A stretch of 64,000 nt of DNA, from NCBI RefSeq assembly GCF_029238095.1, contig NZ_JAQWGS010000003.1:1-64000 (forward strand), given 5' to 3'. Made by a program: the position numbers and the translations under genes. Below, one piece after another: positions 15,932 to 25,684 of this stretch. The stretch comes from Lacinutrix sp. Its GTDB lineage: Bacteria > Bacteroidota > Bacteroidia > Flavobacteriales > Flavobacteriaceae. Numbering within the stretch: the first letter of the stretch is position 1; every line of letters begins with the position of its first letter. The notes under the pieces are model-generated. The model was not told the origin of the DNA. It was given only the letters and a program-made list of their open reading frames with translations, and did no database searches.

Positions 15932-17680
15932 TTAAAATTTATAACTAAAACCAGTATAAACACCAATGATGTATGGTCTAAAGTTTCCAGACGTTTCGCT
16001 GTAAGCATTAATTTGATACTTGAAAGTAGGCTCTAAATTAAACTTAAAAGCTTTATTAAATTTATAATCTAAACCTATTCCTGCATTTGCACTAAAGCTT
16101 AAATTGTTAATATTATTGGCTTCGCCAATTTTTGTTTTTCTATTATCTACTTCGGTAACAACTTCATTATCACTTAAAATAAAAGTGCTAAAACCTCCAA
16201 TTAAGTTAACTCCCAAACGTTTATTAACTACTGCATATTCAAGTTCTAAAGGCACTTCGAAATAGCTTATTCTTTGGCTTAATGCTGCGTTAAGATCGTC
16301 GTTTATAAAATTGTCTATTTGTTGTATAGATAAACTGTTAGAGCTTAACACAGATATGTTTTGTCCATTACTTGTTGGAATAAAATCTATATTTCTTAAT
16401 GGAGTACTACTTGGAGTATTTGTAACGTTTTCGTAAACAATAACATTAGCAGTATCGTAACTTATATTAAGTTTATTTACTCCTGAACGCACTCTTAACC
16501 TATTGTTTAAAGCATAACCAACATTAACACCATAACTTGTGTTAATCTCTCCGTTTTTAGTATTATCGATAAATTGATCGTGAATGTGAGATCCTTTGCC
16601 AAGAGTATTATAGTAAACAGGTGCAGCATTTGCATTTACTGACCACCTGTCTACGTTTTCTTCTTCTTTTTCATCAAGATCTTCTATCTTGGCAAGAGCC
16701 TCTTCGATGGTGTTAGACGAGTTTGCGCTGTCTGGTTCCATCTTTTTTTCTTCTTCTTTTTCTTTTTCTTTATCACTATTAGTTGTCGCAACTACTGTAT
16801 TAGATATTGCATTATTGGTATTTATAGTATTTGTATCTATAGTATTTTTATTGTTTAGGTTATTGTCATTATTAATGGTACTGTTTGAACTTATGTTCTT
16901 TGTAACATTATTGTTAGAAATAGTACTCTCTAAATTATTTTCGTTTGTTAGTCTAGTGTTGTTGTTTGTTGAATTTTTATTATTTGTAACTACACTATTA
17001 TTATTGATAGCTGAATTAGGATTTAAGTTATTAGAAACTGAACTATCTTTTTTATCTTTTGAATTACGTTGCGCAATAGATTGAGAATCCTTAGAGGTAT
17101 TTAAATCTACTTTATTTATTGAAGTTGTAACAAGATTATTGAAATTCTTTTTATTCGGACTTGCAACATAGTTAATAGTGTTTGCAGTATTTTGATTTGA
17201 AACACCTTCTGTATTTAATGCTTTAGAATTTAAAGAATTAACATTGTCTTTGTTGGTTTGTATGTTATGCTTGCTTTTAGACTTATCATCAATTACAACA
17301 GATTTATTTTCTAATAAATTATATTCACTACTTTTGGAATTAGTCTTTTCTGAGGTGTTTATTGTATTATTAGAAACACTATTTATGGTCTTGGTATTAG
17401 ATGTGTTAGGTGTTGTGTTTTCTAGATTAGTATCTACAACATTTGTATTATTGTTTTCTTTATCATTGTTATTAAATGCTAAATTTCCAATGGTAAACAA
17501 TAAAACTAATGCTGCAGCAATACTTGCAAAACGTAACCAAAGCGGTAATACTTTTTTTGGTTTTTGTTGTGGCTGTTCCATTTTATTTTGAATGCCAGAC
17601 CACACATTACTGCTTGGCTTAGCTTCAAAATCCTTAAACTTTTCTTGAAAAAGTCTATCTATATGTTTTTTTTCACTCAT
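15932..17680 (-). CDS. Anti-sigma-like membrane protein with Asn-rich linker and outer-membrane-barrel-like C-terminus
   Basis: This 582-residue protein has a cytoplasmic N-terminus (1-48: DRLFQEKFKDFEAKPSSNVW), one membrane helix (about 49-68), a long linker (about 70-300) dominated by Asn, Ser, Thr and Lys, an acidic stretch, and a C-terminal domain (about 340-582) resembling small outer-membrane beta-barrel proteins (YGVNVGYALNNRLRVRSG, ending YTGFSYKF). Its start overlaps the sigma-factor stop as TAATG, so it is most likely the cognate anti-sigma factor. How a barrel-like domain is used downstream of an inner-membrane helix is unclear; it may be periplasmic. Confidence 0.8.
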   Translation of the reverse strand: MSEKKHIDRLFQEKFKDFEAKPSSNVWSGIQNKMEQPQQKPKKVLPLWLRFASIAAALVLLFTIGNLAFNNNDKENNNTNVVDTNLENTTPNTSNTKTINSVSNNTINTSEKTNSKSSEYNLLENKSVVIDDKSKSKHNIQTNKDNVNSLNSKALNTEGVSNQNTANTINYVASPNKKNFNNLVTTSINKVDLNTSKDSQSIAQRNSKDKKDSSVSNNLNPNSAINNNSVVTNNKNSTNNNTRLTNENNLESTISNNNVTKNISSNSTINNDNNLNNKNTIDTNTINTNNAISNTVVATTNSDKEKEKEEEKKMEPDSANSSNTIEEALAKIEDLDEKEEENVDRWSVNANAAPVYYNTLGKGSHIHDQFIDNTKNGEINTSYGVNVGYALNNRLRVRSGVNKLNISYDTANVIVYENVTNTPSSTPLRNIDFIPTSNGQNISVLSSNSLSIQQIDNFINDDLNAALSQRISYFEVPLELEYAVVNKRLGVNLIGGFSTFILSDNEVVTEVDNRKTKIGEANNINNLSFSANAGIGLDYKFNKAFKFNLEPTFKYQINAYSETSGNFRPYIIGVYTGFSYKF

Positions 17681-18225
17681 TATAAAGATTGAGATTTTAG
17701 TCTCGTTTTATAGTCTGTTATTTTATCTTTTAAAATCTGTCTAGCTCTTGCTAAATTAGATTTTGATGTTCCTGTTGTTATTTTTAACATTTCGGCTATA
17801 TCTTGATGCGAATAGCCATCCATTACATAGAGGTTAAAGACCAAACGGTATCTATCTGGTAGTTCTTGAATGATTTTTAAGAGATAATCTAGTGAAATAT
17901 TATCTTCATCTTCTATTGTAATTGCAACATCTTCTATTAAATGGTCATTTACAATATCAAAAACGCCTTGTGTTCTATAACACTGCAATGCAGTATTTAT
18001 GGTAATTCGTTTTAACCAGCCTTCAAAAGAACCTTTACTTTTATATTGCCCTATTTTTTTAAAAATAGTAACAAATGCATCTTGCAAATTATCTTCTGCT
18101 TCTGCATAGTTTCTTGAATACTTCAAGCATACTGAAAACAACTTGCTCGAAAAGAGCTTATAGAGTTCGCTTTGTGCTTTGGTATCATTAATCTTACAAT
18201 TTTCTATGAGTTGGTTTAAACTCAA
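17680..18225 (-). CDS. ECF RNA polymerase sigma factor
   Basis: This 181-residue sigma-70 family protein contains only regions 2 and 4. Region 2 reads YAEAEDNLQDAFVTIFKKIGQY with SFEGWLKRITINTALQCYR; region 4 reads LPDRYRLVFNLYVMDGYSHQDIAEML with a helix-turn-helix. The start appears to be TTG. The anti-sigma gene overlaps its stop, and a small lipoprotein gene lies 25 bases upstream. An ECF-type promoter (GCAACC-N15-CATCTA) precedes that lipoprotein, suggesting autoregulation. The inducing signal is unknown. Confidence 0.93.
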   Translation of the reverse strand: MSLNQLIENCKINDTKAQSELYKLFSSKLFSVCLKYSRNYAEAEDNLQDAFVTIFKKIGQYKSKGSFEGWLKRITINTALQCYRTQGVFDIVNDHLIEDVAITIEDEDNISLDYLLKIIQELPDRYRLVFNLYVMDGYSHQDIAEMLKITTGTSKSNLARARQILKDKITDYKTRLKSQSL

Positions 18226-18250: not shown

Positions 18251-18658
18251 TTATTCTACCACAGTAATCTCTTCTGTTAAGTAAATATCTTCTCCATTAT
18301 CATCTTCACCTTGCCAAAATTTAAAGATATAAGTGCCTGCTATAGTTGGATTAAAATTAAATGAGGCTTCAAGCTCTGCGTTTAGCTCTGTACAATTGCC
18401 ATTACTTTGAAAAACAGTACCAATAACATAAAAGTTTCTTTCGTTATCATGCTTTTGTAATAATATATTATTGAAGGCATGGCAAGTTGTAGGTCTTAAA
18501 TAAGTTAGTGTAATGTCATACTCTTCATTTACAATAAATTCTTGTGGTAATGCAACAGATTCTATAGGCATTGCTTCTTGATAGTCGTCAAGTGAATCGT
18601 CGGCTGAGTTACAAGAAAAAATAGTTAAACCAATTAATAAAACAAGGAGTTTTTTCAT
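18251..18658 (-). CDS. Small lipoprotein heading the ECF sigma operon
   Basis: This 135-residue lipoprotein has a signal peptide ending IFSC (Cys16). The mature part has an immunoglobulin-like strand pattern (YDITLTYLRPTTCHAFNN, IAGTYIFKFWQG, ending YLTEEITVVE) and two Cys that could form a disulfide. I do not recognise a named family. It is the first gene of the sigma/anti-sigma transcription unit and has the ECF-type promoter about 37 bases upstream, so it is probably both a regulon member and perhaps a sensor or effector of the stress concerned. Confidence 0.78.
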   Translation of the reverse strand: MKKLLVLLIGLTIFSCNSADDSLDDYQEAMPIESVALPQEFIVNEEYDITLTYLRPTTCHAFNNILLQKHDNERNFYVIGTVFQSNGNCTELNAELEASFNFNPTIAGTYIFKFWQGEDDNGEDIYLTEEITVVE

Positions 18659-18694: not shown

Positions 18695-18721
18695 TAGATG
18701 CAAAAATGTCTAAAAGGTTGC
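18695..18721 (-). promoter_or_regulatory. ECF-type promoter of lipoprotein/sigma/anti-sigma operon
   Basis: On the minus strand GCAACC (plus 18716-18721) is followed after 15 bases by CATCTA (plus 18695-18700). The same two boxes with identical spacing, plus matching bases between them (CTTTT and TTTTTG), recur on the plus strand at 19848-19874. The transcript would start about 30 bases before the lipoprotein ATG. Confidence 0.6.
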
Positions 18722-18735
18722 GTCTAAAAACAAAA

Positions 18736-18757
18736 AAATCCCGAAAAAATCGGGATT
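18736..18757 (-). terminator. recA terminator
   Basis: AAATCCCGA and TCGGGATTT form a 9-bp stem over a short A-rich loop, about 20 bases beyond the recA stop. On the minus strand it is followed by a T run (plus-strand A7), giving an intrinsic terminator. Confidence 0.85.
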
Positions 18758-18775
18758 TAGTAATTATGTAATGTT

Positions 18776-19780
18776 TTACATATCGTCTTTAATAGCTTGT
18801 TTTATTTTCTGTTCAAGCTCATCAAAAAGTTCAGGATTGTCTTTTATTATTGCTTTTACAGCATCTCGACCTTGTCCTAATTTTGTGTCTCCATAACTAA
18901 ACCAAGAGCCACTTTTTTTAATTATTTCTTTTTCTACTGCCACATCTAAAATCTCACCAACTTTACTAACACCTTCTCCGTACATGATATCGAACTCTGC
19001 TAATTTAAATGGTGGTGCAACTTTGTTTTTAACTACTTTAACTCTAGTTTTATTTCCTAAAACAGCACCATCTGTACTTTTAATTTGTGTAGAACGTCTT
19101 ATATCTAAACGCACTGAAGCATAAAATTTAAGCGCGTTACCTCCAGTTGTTGTTTCTGGGTTTCCAAACATAACACCAATTTTCTCACGTAATTGGTTTA
19201 TAAATATTACAGTACAATTTGTTTTACTAATGGATGCGGTTAATTTTCTTAAAGCCTGAGACATTAAACGAGCGTGTAATCCCATTTTACTGTCTCCCAT
19301 TTCACCTTCAATTTCACTTTTTGGAGTTAATGCAGCAACCGAGTCGATTACAACAATATCAATAGCACCAGAACGAATTAAATTATCTGCAATTTCTAAT
19401 GCTTGTTCTCCATTATCTGGTTGAGAAATAATTAAATTATCGATATCTACACCAAGTTTTTCGGCATAAAAACGATCAAAAGCATGTTCAGCATCAATAA
19501 AAGCTGCAATACCACCTGCTTTTTGTGCTTCTGCAATAGCATGAAGTGTAAGTGTCGTTTTACCAGAAGATTCCGGACCATAAATTTCTATAACACGTCC
19601 TCGTGGATAACCACCAACGCCTAAAGCAATATCCAAACCTAAAGAACCAGAAGGAATGGCTTCGACATCTACAATTGCAGCGTCGCTCATTTTCATAACT
19701 GTTCCTTTTCCGTATGCTTTATCTAATTTATCTAATGTTAGCTTTAATGCTTTTAGTTTCGCTTCTTTTTCATTGCTCAT
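18776..19780 (-). CDS. recA: Recombinase RecA
   Basis: This 334-residue protein has the Walker A motif GPESSGKT at 68-75, the FIDAEHAFD segment, the loop L1/L2 regions ([31 protein letters not shown]) and a normal acidic C-terminus. It forms ATP-dependent filaments on single-stranded DNA for strand exchange and the SOS response. It is a single-gene unit ended by its own terminator. No SOS box was recognised upstream. It is divergent from the small ECF-promoter transcript at 19848-20135. Confidence 0.98.
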
Positions 19781-19847
19781 AGTATCTTTTTTTTACTGTT
19801 ATTCGTGCTAAAATACTACTTTTTTAATCTTTTTTTTAATTTCTCAC

Positions 19848-19874
19848 GCAACCTTTTCAAACTTTTTGCATCTA
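19848..19874 (+). promoter_or_regulatory. ECF-type promoter for a short stand-alone transcript
   Basis: GCAACC (19848-19853), a 15-base spacer, then CATCTA (19869-19874). The core from ACGCAACCTTTT through TTTTTGCATCTAC is nearly identical to the promoter of the ECF sigma operon. No annotated gene follows before an intrinsic terminator at 20103-20135, so it should drive an RNA of about 250 bases. Confidence 0.6.
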
Positions 19875-19960
19875 CTAATAAAGATGGGAAAGTTTTAGCT
19901 ATGAAAAAGAAAAATTAACCTCATTTTTTAATTCATGTTTAATCTATTAAGTGTAATGAC

Positions 19961-20053
19961 ATGAGGTATTTAAAAAAAGTATTAACATCAAAAGCATTAG
20001 GTGTTTCAGTCTCTGTTATAGTTAATAGTAGCTGCAAAGCCGATGGAGGTTAG
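19961..20053 (+). CDS. Candidate small ORF (30 residues) under ECF-type promoter
   Basis: ATG at 19961 opens a 30-codon frame reading MRYLKKVLTSKALGVSVSVI followed by VNSSCKADGG and a TAG. It has a basic N-terminus, a short hydrophobic core, one Cys and a C-terminal Gly-Gly. It is the longest frame in the 477-base gap between recA and trhO. It lies between an ECF-type promoter and an intrinsic terminator. A 7-base inverted repeat (ACCTCAT at 19918, ATGAGGT at the start codon) could mask initiation. I do not recognise the peptide. The RNA could equally act as a non-coding regulator; a 5-codon frame at 19901-19918 precedes it. Confidence 0.35.
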   Translation: MRYLKKVLTSKALGVSVSVIVNSSCKADGG

Positions 20054-20102
20054 CTCGTTTGTTTTTTAGAGATAAAAGAATTTAATAACGAGTTAGTCTA
20101 TT

Positions 20103-20135
20103 AAAAGTCCGTTACGCAAATAGCGGACTTTTTTT
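20103..20135 (+). terminator. Terminator of the short ECF-promoter transcript
   Basis: AAAAGTCCGTTA (20103-20114) pairs with TAGCGGACTTTT (20121-20132) over the loop CGCAAA, with one G-T pair, followed by T to 20135. It lies upstream of the trhO promoter, so it ends a separate plus-strand transcript. Confidence 0.8.
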
Positions 20136-20176: not shown

Positions 20177-20184
20177 TACCTTTG
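20177..20184 (+). promoter_or_regulatory. trhO promoter -7 element
   Basis: TACCTTTG matches TAnnTTTG exactly, 73 bases before the trhO ATG. A partial -33 (CTTGC at 20154-20158) lies about 18 bases upstream. Confidence 0.5.
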
Positions 20185-20257: not shown

Positions 20258-21325
20258 ATGCAACTGTACAACAAATTAAGCGCCAAAGAAAGAGCAGAGC
20301 TTATAGAAAAAGCTGGAAAAGAACGTTTAACATTATCATTTTACGCTTATGCTCAAATTGGCAATCCACAACAATTACGTGACGATTTATTTATTAAATG
20401 GGATAGTTTAGACGTTTTAGGACGTATTTACGTAGCCCAAGAAGGTATTAACGCGCAATTATCACTTCCTGCAGATAATTTTGAAGCCTTTAAAAACCAT
20501 TTAGATAGTATTCCTTTTTTAAAAGGAATCCGTTTAAATATCGCTATAGAACAAGATAATATGTCTTTTCTTAAACTAAAAGTTAAAGTAAGAGACAAAA
20601 TAGTTGCAGATGGTTTAAACGACGACACTTTTGATGTTACAAATAAAGGTGTTCACCTTTCGGCTAAAGATTTTAACGAGATGTTATCTAATCCAAACAC
20701 AGTTTGTGTAGATATGCGAAACCACTACGAAAGTGAAATTGGGCATTTTGATGGAGCTGTAACTCCAGATGTAGATACATTTCGTGAAAGTTTAGATATT
20801 ATTGAAGCCGATTTACGTGAACATAAAGAAGAAAAAAACCTACTAATGTATTGTACAGGTGGCATTCGTTGTGAAAAAGCAAGTGCCTATTACAAACACA
20901 AAGGTTTTAAAAATGTATACCAACTTGAAGGTGGAATTATAGAATATACCAGACAAGTAAATGCAGAAGGTATTGAGAATAAGTTTATTGGTAAAAACTT
21001 TGTTTTTGACGATAGACGAGCCGAAAAAATTAGCGACCATGTTATAGCAAAATGCCATCAATGTGGCAACCCTTTCGATGTGCATACCAATTGCGCAAAC
21101 GATGCCTGCCATCTTCTTTTTCTGCAATGTGATACTTGTAAAGAAGAAATGAATAACTGTTGCTCAACCACTTGTAAAGATATTCATGCAATGCCCTTTG
21201 AAGAACAAAAAGAGCTAAGAAAAGGGCAAGGTAATAGTAACGATATCTTTAAAAAAGGAAGAGCAGACCACTTACCATATAAAAAAGATTTGAGAAACAT
21301 TTTTGAGACTTTAAAAAAAGAGTAA
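20258..21325 (+). CDS. trhO: tRNA uridine(34) hydroxylase TrhO (rhodanese family)
   Basis: This 355-residue protein has an N-terminal acylphosphatase-like part (about 1-120), a rhodanese domain (about 125-230) with the active-site loop YCTGGIRCEKA, and a C-terminal Cys-rich segment (CHQCG, CANDACH, CDTCKEE, CCSTTC) that may bind zinc. TrhO (formerly YceA) hydroxylates U34 of certain tRNAs to 5-hydroxyuridine using oxygen and prephenate-derived steps. It has its own promoter and a downstream hairpin, so is probably monocistronic. Confidence 0.93.
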   Translation: MQLYNKLSAKERAELIEKAGKERLTLSFYAYAQIGNPQQLRDDLFIKWDSLDVLGRIYVAQEGINAQLSLPADNFEAFKNHLDSIPFLKGIRLNIAIEQDNMSFLKLKVKVRDKIVADGLNDDTFDVTNKGVHLSAKDFNEMLSNPNTVCVDMRNHYESEIGHFDGAVTPDVDTFRESLDIIEADLREHKEEKNLLMYCTGGIRCEKASAYYKHKGFKNVYQLEGGIIEYTRQVNAEGIENKFIGKNFVFDDRRAEKISDHVIAKCHQCGNPFDVHTNCANDACHLLFLQCDTCKEEMNNCCSTTCKDIHAMPFEEQKELRKGQGNSNDIFKKGRADHLPYKKDLRNIFETLKKE

Positions 21326-23335: not shown

Positions 23336-25684
23336 ATGGCAAAGACAAAAACAAAACAAACACAAGATCCCCAGAGCTTCGAAAATTACGTACGTTGGTT
23401 TTGGAAACTATTTATAGGAGGCATTCTAGCTATTGCATTATTATTTTTATTAGCATCTTGGGATGTGTTTGGAGAAATGCCAAATCATACTGTTTTAGAA
23501 AATCCTAAAACAAATTTAGCAACCGAAATTATCTCTAGTGATGGCAAAACTTTAGGGAAATTTTACTTCGATGATAATAGAACTCCTGTAGGTTACGACG
23601 AGTTAACAGAAAACCTTGTAAATGCTCTTATAGCCACGGAAGACACAAGATATTTAGAACATTCTGGAATAGACGCAAGAGGAACTTTAAGAGCTATATT
23701 GAAACCAGGAAGTGGTGGAGCAAGTACAATTTCTCAACAACTTGCAAAGCAATTATTTCATGGAGAAGGCTCAAGAAATATTGTCATGCGTGTCCTTCAA
23801 AAAGCCAAAGAGTGGATTATTGCAACACGTTTAGAACGTCAATATACTAAAGAAGAAATAATTACTCAATACTTTAATATTTACGATTTTGGTAACAATG
23901 GTGATGGTATTCGTTCGGCATCAAACATCTATTTCGATAAAGAACCCAAAGACTTAAGTATTAAGGAGTCTGCAATGTTAGTTGGGATGTTTAAAAATTC
24001 TTCTTTATATAACCCTAGAACAAATCCTGTAGGTGTTAAAAACCGAAGAAATGTGGTGTTGTTACAAATGCATAAATACGGTTATATTACAGAAGAAGTA
24101 AAAGATTCACTTCAAAAAACAGCATTAGATTTAAGGTATTCTCCGCAATCACATCGTGATGGTACTGCAACGTATTTTAGAGAATATCTAAGAAGCTGGA
24201 TGAAAGATTGGACAAACGATAAAGCCAATAGAAAACCAGACGGTAAAAAATACAACATTAATAGCGATGGTTTAAAAGTGTTTGTAACTATAGATTCTCG
24301 TATGCAAAAGTATGCTGAAACTGCAGTAAACAGGCACATGCCAAGACTGCAAGCAGCGTTTGATAACCAAAATACTCCCAAAAAAAATCCTACTGCACCT
24401 TTTTTAGAATTAACTAAAGACGAGGTTGAAGATTTATTAAAAAAAGGCATGCGTCGTGGAGAACGTTGGAGGATATTAAAAAAACAAGGAAAAAGTAACA
24501 AAGAGATTGAAGCTTCATTTGAAGAACCAATAAAAATGACTGTTTTTAAATGGGTAGATGGTAAAGCTAGTGAAGTAGATACTATCATGAAACCTATAGA
24601 TTCTATGCGTTATTATAAATCATTTTTACGAACAGGAATGATGAGTATGGATCCACAAACAGGACATGTAAAAGCTTGGGTTGGTGGCATGAATTATAGA
24701 CATTTTCAATACGATATGGTAAAACAAGGAAAACGACAAGTTGGTTCCACATTTAAACCTTTTGTTTATGCCACAGCAATGGATCAATTACACATGTCAC
24801 CTTGCGATAAATTACCACTATCACAAATAACAATAGAAGCTAATAAATATGGAAATCCAGAAGCTTGGTCACCCAAAAATGATGATGGAAATTACGGTGG
24901 AGACAAAACATTAACAGATGCTTTGGCAAATTCTGTAAATACTATTACTGCAAGATTAATGGATAAGGTTGGACCACAACCAGTAGCAGATTTAGCAAGA
25001 CGATTAGGTATAACATCAAATATTCCAGAAGTGCCTTCAATAGCATTAGGAACACCAGATATTAGCGTTTACGAAATGGTTGGAGCTTATTCAGCATTTG
25101 CAAACCAAGGTGTATATACAAAGCCAGTAATGATTGAGCGTATTGAAGATAAAAACGGAACTGTTTTATACCAATTTACACCAGAAACAAGAGATGTATT
25201 AAGCGCAGAATCTGCTTATGTAACCGTTAAGTTAATGGAAGGTGTAACACAAAGTGGTTCTGGTGCACGATTACGTAGAACTTGGATGCCAAAAACAGGA
25301 GTTTATCCAGAAATAATAACAGGTTATCCTTACGAATTTAAAAATCCAATTGCAGGAAAAACAGGAACAACACAAAACCAAAGTGACGGTTGGTTTATGG
25401 GAATGGTACCAAATTTAGTAACAGGTGTTTGGGTTGGAGCAGAGGACAGAGCGGCACATTTTAAAAGCATTACTTATGGTCAAGGCGCAGCAATGGCATT
25501 ACCTATTTGGGGAATGTATATGAAAAGTTGCTATGAAGACGAGAAACTAGATATTTCAGATGAAAACTTCGAAAGGCCTAAAGATTTAACCATTGAAGTC
25601 GATTGCTCTAAATACCAAGCTGAAAATCCAGATGGTGGTACAGATACACCACTTGAGGAAATTCCGGATGGTTTAGAATTGTAA
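23336..25684 (+). CDS. Class A penicillin-binding protein (PBP1A type)
   Basis: This 782-residue bifunctional enzyme has a cytoplasmic tail, one membrane helix (about 25-43), a GT51 transglycosylase domain (catalytic Glu102 in TEDTRYLEHSG; GASTISQQLAKQ) and a transpeptidase domain with the nucleophile Ser in VGSTFKP (about 470), SVN (about 535) and KTGTT (about 675). It polymerises glycan strands from lipid II and crosslinks peptides in the periplasm. A Lys/Arg-rich insert lies between the domains. It follows gldH by 65 bases. Confidence 0.96.
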   Translation: MAKTKTKQTQDPQSFENYVRWFWKLFIGGILAIALLFLLASWDVFGEMPNHTVLENPKTNLATEIISSDGKTLGKFYFDDNRTPVGYDELTENLVNALIATEDTRYLEHSGIDARGTLRAILKPGSGGASTISQQLAKQLFHGEGSRNIVMRVLQKAKEWIIATRLERQYTKEEIITQYFNIYDFGNNGDGIRSASNIYFDKEPKDLSIKESAMLVGMFKNSSLYNPRTNPVGVKNRRNVVLLQMHKYGYITEEVKDSLQKTALDLRYSPQSHRDGTATYFREYLRSWMKDWTNDKANRKPDGKKYNINSDGLKVFVTIDSRMQKYAETAVNRHMPRLQAAFDNQNTPKKNPTAPFLELTKDEVEDLLKKGMRRGERWRILKKQGKSNKEIEASFEEPIKMTVFKWVDGKASEVDTIMKPIDSMRYYKSFLRTGMMSMDPQTGHVKAWVGGMNYRHFQYDMVKQGKRQVGSTFKPFVYATAMDQLHMSPCDKLPLSQITIEANKYGNPEAWSPKNDDGNYGGDKTLTDALANSVNTITARLMDKVGPQPVADLARRLGITSNIPEVPSIALGTPDISVYEMVGAYSAFANQGVYTKPVMIERIEDKNGTVLYQFTPETRDVLSAESAYVTVKLMEGVTQSGSGARLRRTWMPKTGVYPEIITGYPYEFKNPIAGKTGTTQNQSDGWFMGMVPNLVTGVWVGAEDRAAHFKSITYGQGAAMALPIWGMYMKSCYEDEKLDISDENFERPKDLTIEVDCSKYQAENPDGGTDTPLEEIPDGLEL

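Follow-up and report, generated by a model that had tools for sequence, protein, structure and literature searches.

The question raised by this locus is what lies behind the second of two identical promoter motifs that flank recA. The window, which is the whole stretch of DNA analysed (64,000 nt), comprises positions 1-64,000 of the forward strand of contig NZ_JAQWGS010000003.1 from Lacinutrix sp. (assembly GCF_029238095.1). One motif, P1, precedes an operon encoding a lipoprotein, an ECF sigma factor and a third protein. The other, P2, precedes no known gene and is followed by an intrinsic terminator, and a first-pass annotation had proposed that the interval contains a gene of about 250 bases, for either a small RNA or a peptide, that belongs to the regulon of the sigma factor. 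The features are listed in Table 1.

Table 1. Features of the recA region, numbered from the first base of the window
Feature	Position	Strand	Evidence
P2, ECF-type promoter GCAACC-N15-CATCTA of the small transcript	19848-19874	+	Exact match; 75/78 named loci
P1, ECF-type promoter of the lipoprotein/sigma/third-gene operon	18695-18721	-	Exact match; 70/75 loci
Small transcript (predicted)	19881-20135	+	Start predicted at ~19881; bounded by P2 and terminator
Leader segment antisense to the dnaJ-adjacent sRNA	19883-19917	+	Rank 1 of 6394 windows; z<-3 in 72/76 leaders
Upstream mini-ORF MKKKN* within the pairing segment	19901-19918	+	Sequence; variable or missing in relatives
30-aa micro-protein ORF, MRYLKKVLTSKALGVSVSVIVNSSCKADGG	19961-20053	+	ORF list, conservation, pN/pS
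Stop-codon stem, 20048-20059 pairing with AACGAGTTAGTC (20087-20098)	20048-20098	+	10.6/12 positions paired, mean over 98 loci
Intrinsic terminator of the small transcript	20103-20135	+	12-pair stem (20103-20132), then T
Lipoprotein gene, first in the sigma operon	18251-18658	-	Seen in 75/78 loci
ECF sigma factor gene	17680-18225	-	Sigma70_r2 and r4_2 (Pfam)
Third gene, probable anti-sigma factor	15932-17680	-	Position and architecture
recA, between both promoters	18776-19780	-	Pfam; divergent from the small transcript
Sigma-A-like -7 box of trhO, TACCTTTG	20177-20184	+	Sequence; consensus TAnnTTTG as given in the available part of PMC9723704
trhO, downstream neighbour	20258-21325	+	Family-model matches to TrhO domains

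The paired promoters and the sigma regulon

Both boxes were found where the first-pass annotation had placed them, with 0 mismatches, and the wider match that it had described between them, ACGCAACCTTTT...TTTTTGCATCTAC, is present at P1 and at P2. The terminator that it had placed downstream was also recovered, as was a sigma-A-like -7 box for the separate trhO promoter. Its description of the operon behind P1 stood for the gene order and for the sigma factor, which was recognised by Pfam, as were the RecA and TrhO domains. Neither the lipoprotein nor the third protein has a Pfam or NCBIfam match at E<=0.001, and the label 'anti-sigma' for the latter therefore denotes position and architecture. 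Inspected by eye, the third protein has a short N-terminus, a hydrophobic stretch, a long Asn/Ser-rich linker and a C-terminal part that resembles an outer-membrane beta-barrel.

If as many as 2 mismatches are tolerated, the motif by itself is weak: the window contains 4 matches, where 2.98 are expected from shuffles. The exact motif occurs at 47 sites in 13 Lacinutrix genomes (4 in the genome studied here and 2 to 6 in each of the 12 others), compared with 0 for the reversed pattern. The exact P1 and P2 pair flanks recA in 12 of the 13, and in the exception (G006) the first box reads GCATCTT. P2 shares both boxes and their spacing with P1, the sigma operon's own promoter, a pattern that points to autoregulation.

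A genome search for the motif, with a listing of the genes downstream, had been suggested as a check. Outside the recA pair there are 22 exact sites in the 13 genomes and, when G004:C38:11327 and G002:C1:1167797 are set aside, all 20 sites examined precede ORFs with signal-peptide-like starts. The distance from box to ORF is 10-34 nt for 18 of them and 128 nt for 2. A simple lipobox pattern is present in 12 of these ORFs; of the others, judged by eye, 5 are signal-like with a Cys before acidic residues and 3 have a signal peptide without Cys. From these sequence features, the sigma factor would be an autoregulated envelope-type ECF factor that serves surface lipoproteins.

A DNA search of 99 genomes, including the source genome, recovered a 301-base region in all 12 other genomes of the genus. 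A scan of named genomes matched 97 stretches, of which 78 were kept after confirmation. These 78 loci span Lacinutrix, Olleya, Psychroserpens, Bizionia, Winogradskyella, Flavivirga, Mangrovimonas and other Flavobacteriaceae. The divergent orientation relative to recA, part of the original claim, is found in 78 of 78, and trhO lies downstream in 76. The lipoprotein and sigma factor genes were each seen in 75 loci and the third gene in 74. The two boxes had also been predicted to recur in relatives, and they do. A P2 box lies upstream of the ORF in 75 of the 78 named loci, with a spacer of 15 in all 75 (13-17 permitted), and a P1 box precedes the lipoprotein in 70 of the 75 loci where that gene was seen. 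The loci without an exact box hold near variants, CATCTT or CATCTC-like for P1 and GCGTCTA, CAACTA or CATCTT for P2.

The micro-protein and the stem at its stop codon

The small transcript encodes a conserved 30-aa peptide with the C-terminal end ...NSxCKADGG. Members are 28-30 aa long and differ by whole-codon indels and by substitutions that fall mostly at third positions. For 64 ORFs, pN/pS was 0.41 in frame, versus 1.00 and 0.66 in the other frames; along the ORF it was 0.04 in the last nine codons and 0.63 in the first 21. Synonymous changes are thus favoured and the frame is kept through indels, as in a protein-coding gene. Among 28 diverse members, no residue other than M1 and the final D-G-G is invariant, and the distant members L191 and L196 lack an ATG at the aligned start. 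The ORF is broken in L205 (G123) and broken or shortened in L207 (G020), and promoter, leader and terminator are kept in both.

At E<=1e-4, the micro-protein was detected in 67 of the 397 genomes of the family. Outside the family, the best match in 296 genomes of the order had an E value of 0.001 and covered part of the profile. Neither Pfam nor NCBIfam gave a credible match. The possibility that the peptide is a mini-lipoprotein was rejected, as N-S-S/N before the Cys is not a lipobox and the Cys is replaced by Phe or missing in some members.

A 12-base arm made up of the last Gly codon, the stop codon and six further bases can pair with the downstream segment AACGAGTTAGTC. Over 98 loci a mean of 10.6 of the 12 positions are paired, versus 8.7 for shuffled arms, and at least 11 are paired in 60 of the 98 loci, versus 22 of 2000 shuffled arms. 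GCC encodes the Ala of CKADGG in 75 of 78 loci, which may reflect an added constraint at the RNA level. The terminator stems, inspected by eye in the alignment, vary without matching the stop-codon stem.

We note that CTAACTC or a near variant is found at 20048-20059 in the window and in L199, L201-L203, L214, L219, L357, L358, L367, L368, L372 and L380. This element forms the 5' side of the stop-codon stem, or stands alone where the peptide is missing. A role for the transcript as a leader-peptide attenuator of trhO is not favoured, as trhO has its own -7 box and the terminator stems vary.

A predicted small RNA beside dnaJ and its match to the leader

In the search of 99 genomes, the leader matched one additional place in most family genomes. 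An alignment from 20 genomes identifies this place as a predicted sRNA of ~90 nt that lies beside dnaJ and is encoded on the strand opposite to the match. The alignment includes 20 of 22 stretches, L243 and L244 having been dropped as they are without the search pattern. The order of elements is a -7 box, TATATTTG (18 of 20 genomes), a hairpin, the unpaired segment TTTCTTTTTCATAGCAA and a terminator, with two hairpins. In 18 of the 20, the terminator stem includes a U.G pair, which fixes the strand because the opposite strand would have a mismatch there. An earlier view of the dnaJ element as a second copy of the leader was dropped, as the U.G pairs, the T-run and TATATTTG put the RNA on the other strand. 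With its own promoter, an intrinsic terminator, an unpaired conserved seed and a strand assigned from structure, the element has the sequence features of a trans-encoded sRNA. The copy in the source genome (C5:56654-56745, L039) is outside the window, between dnaJ and an ABC-transporter gene.

A covariance model found the sRNA in 342 of the 397 family genomes at E<=1e-3 (55 are without a match). Of the 296 order genomes, 29 gave a match at E<=1e-5, all 29 being Flavobacteriaceae. The invariance of the seed in the 20-genome alignment is partly by construction, because the sequences were picked with part of the seed. A 17-base seed is present in all 35 of the best covariance-model loci, which are the top scorers. 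The sRNA locus L039 has no Rfam match at E<=1. For the small transcript, no Rfam model reached its gathering score, and the 8 sub-threshold matches (best E value 0.0005, IsrM) lie mostly over the terminator. The sRNA model also has weaker matches, two to seven per genome, in G169, G181, G369, G596 and G643; these may be related RNAs or chance matches to T-rich sequence.

Pairing with the sRNA segment of the source genome was assessed for 76 loci, with the small transcript represented by its first 70 nt and z computed against shuffles. The mean duplex energy was -30.7 kcal/mol and the median z -6.84, with z<-3 in 72 loci and z>=-3 in 4. For the control start regions, the mean energies were -5.8 for trhO (z<-3 in 0/76), -14.4 for recA (2/77) and -10.5 for the lipoprotein (11/75). 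Among 6394 sixty-base windows taken from both strands of the window, the leader was the best partner of the sRNA, at -41.4 versus -28.8 kcal/mol for the next locus. The leader thus shows extensive and conserved complementarity to an sRNA seed, beyond chance, as expected of a sponge. The second-best partner, at 25501 (+), falls inside a 782-aa ORF (23336-25684) and is probably a chance match.

At the nine core positions, between 63 and 68 of the 68 aligned leaders can form the pair; these counts are biased by the pattern used for alignment and leave out 8 of the 76 leaders, 7 of which visibly contain GCTATGA. Subject to the same bias, 15 differences in the core keep the pair and 8 break it.

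Other partners were also sought. No convincing further target of the sRNA was found in the window, where the best of 63 ORF starts reached -18.3. A general action of the sRNA on signal-peptide mRNAs is unsupported, the mean energy being -6.9 for 11 signal-like starts in the window and -8.4 for the others. Most of the sigma regulon is without a pairing site: z<-3 was found in 10 of 74 sigma-operon transcripts, and 25 other loci were mostly weak.

The leader also occurs where no peptide is detected. A composite motif, made up of the promoter, 18-28 nt and CTRTGAAA, is present in 104 of the 397 genomes (293 are without it), and the reversed pattern is present in 0; in this strict form it misses 23 of the 67 peptide genomes. 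Among the composite genomes, 87 have a GG..A leader, 44 with a peptide match and 43 without. Removal of four judged doubtful by eye (G137, G177, G267 and G316) leaves about 39 genomes with the leader and no detected peptide. Thirty composite loci were retrieved, and all 21 flagged as canonical sit between recA and trhO. In L357, L358, L368 and L372, and less clearly in L377, the transcript would consist of little more than the leader, a ACTAACTCGAA-like element and the terminator. According to a comparison of the lists by reading, all of the true-leader genomes are in the sRNA match list except G133, which is 89% complete.

Loci from genomes lacking a good peptide match were also sampled. Of 30 such genomes, 28 gave trhO, and one locus (L222) proved to encode a divergent peptide. 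Fifteen of the loci bear the promoter, and the site for the sRNA is in the leader in 9 (z -2.2 to -5.9), further inside in 4 and missing in 2; three of the sites in these 15 loci reach only z -2.2 to -2.5. The internal sites belong to another clade (L213, L214, L219 and L220, from G013, G030, G049 and G154, respectively), and lie 110-136 nt into the RNA, with z from -2.4 to -8.1. Persistence of the leader beyond the peptide is our main reason for preferring an antagonist of the sRNA to a plain micro-protein mRNA.

Candidate function and relation to known systems

Both halves of the original proposal gained support from the comparison of related sequences. 'Peptide gene' holds because the 30-codon ORF is conserved and under purifying selection, and 'small RNA' holds because the antisense match to a trans-encoded sRNA is conserved. 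We consider the small transcript to be probably a sigma-dependent antagonist (a sponge or decoy) of the dnaJ-adjacent sRNA, with a micro-protein added in one clade. The neighbouring ECF sigma factor would recognise P2 as well as P1. Once freed, the sigma factor would direct transcription of its own operon, of several surface lipoproteins and of the ~250-nt RNA divergent from recA. The 5' leader, the most constant part of this RNA, would form a duplex of ~30 nt with the sRNA, spanning the latter's unpaired region and 5' terminator arm; the sRNA is predicted to be made from a sigma-A-type promoter. Such a sponge would relieve whatever targets the sRNA has for as long as the sigma factor remains active. 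The clade of the source genome would also have the 30-aa micro-protein on the same transcript, with its stop codon in the conserved stem.

The direction of regulation could be the reverse. The pairing core covers an AUG or GUG, and a site over a start codon, as in ordinary sRNA repression, fits a target as well as a sponge. The leader ORF or micro-protein would then be silenced by the sRNA until the sigma factor makes enough transcript, and the micro-protein would be the product that matters. In genomes with a short leader (e.g. L097, L110, L120 and L146) the AUG of the pairing site is the start of the micro-protein, and purifying selection on the ORF is as this explanation predicts. However, the start of the micro-protein lies tens of bases downstream of the site in most genomes with the peptide, and the leader is kept in about 39 genomes without a detected peptide. 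Moreover, L125 and L202 have lost the leader ATG and retain most of the match to the sRNA. We regard repression of an ordinary target as unlikely, though deserving of serious consideration.

It is improbable that P2 is used by another ECF factor, or that its chief role is to supply trhO with read-through transcripts. The same boxes can serve several ECF factors, and an ECF-type start upstream of yceA/trhO is described for Flavobacterium psychrophilum in the available part of PMC9723704, but P1 and P2 retain identical boxes in the same loci, and a strong terminator and a separate trhO -7 box stand between P2 and trhO. There is very little to recommend the view that the transcript is solely a sigma-dependent micro-protein mRNA whose leader match reflects a shared style of translation start: the start-codon-like stretch GCTATGAAAAAG is indeed common to the leader and the sRNA complement, and the ORF is conserved, but the energies are far beyond those of shuffles and of three sets of real start regions, the complementarity reaches further upstream, as far as GGG (73 of 76 leaders have GG(G)A), the leader is retained without the ORF, and starts of the type TTGCTATGAAAA, the 12-base complement of the sRNA, are uncommon and not enriched in 7 genomes (20 sites versus 27 for the control).

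Returning to the sponge, the broader statement would be that in the Flavobacteriaceae an ECF sigma factor has under its control an RNA dedicated to antagonising an sRNA found across the family, and that one clade has added a micro-protein with its stop codon in a conserved stem. This we offer tentatively, as a reading slightly less likely than not. If true, transcription of surface lipoproteins and regulation by the sRNA would be switched together. To our knowledge, few studies have addressed RNA regulation in Bacteroidota other than Bacteroides. The locus offers a pairing that can be put to the test, between an sRNA whose seed is highly conserved and the antisense leader of a transcript preceded by an envelope-type sigma promoter, and a micro-protein family new to every family library searched. 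The sRNA is widespread in the family and has no Rfam match, and by itself gives a way into post-transcriptional control in an important group of marine bacteria.

Dual-function RNAs such as SgrS/SgrT also combine a pairing segment and a small protein in a short transcript, and SgrS pairs with mRNAs. Here, in contrast, pairing is with an sRNA, and many genomes have the pairing segment without the protein. We know of neither ECF control nor a micro-protein as a feature of the RoxS sponge of Bacillus subtilis. According to the available part of the report (PMC8216469), that RNA resembles the candidate described here in acting on one sRNA, in a species described as having no known RNA hub protein, but the organism and the sequences are different.

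Within the same family, the available part of PMC9723704 describes SM6 of F. psychrophilum, a set of ECF-type promoters that, as here, precede a sigma/anti-sigma operon, a small RNA and trhO; one lies upstream of yceA (trhO) and one before the putative RNA Rfp11. SM6 is, however, characterised there by a CGT box. The motif was not found within 560 nt upstream of trhO in 16 genomes of one large genus, g151, where recA was seen divergent in 1, and the F. psychrophilum case therefore seems to be separate. A literature search of open-licence papers found no ECF-controlled sponge in Bacteroidota, and a word search for 'sponge' gave no hit in the main text of two papers on sRNAs of Bacteroides thetaiotaomicron (PMC10994844 and PMC10861873).

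The most similar arrangement is that of the RybB sponges of Escherichia coli, FtsO, RbsZ and 3'ETS-leuZ, as set out in the available part of PMC7815308. There, a small RNA pairs with the seed of an sRNA linked to envelope stress and antagonises it, and seed and match are conserved together. The wiring differs: in E. coli it is the sponged sRNA that belongs to the envelope-stress response, whereas in the present case the ECF-type promoter precedes the candidate sponge and the sRNA has a promoter of housekeeping type. By analogy, and on the part of that account available, FtsO is the closest mechanism to the one proposed for the small transcript (PMC7815308).
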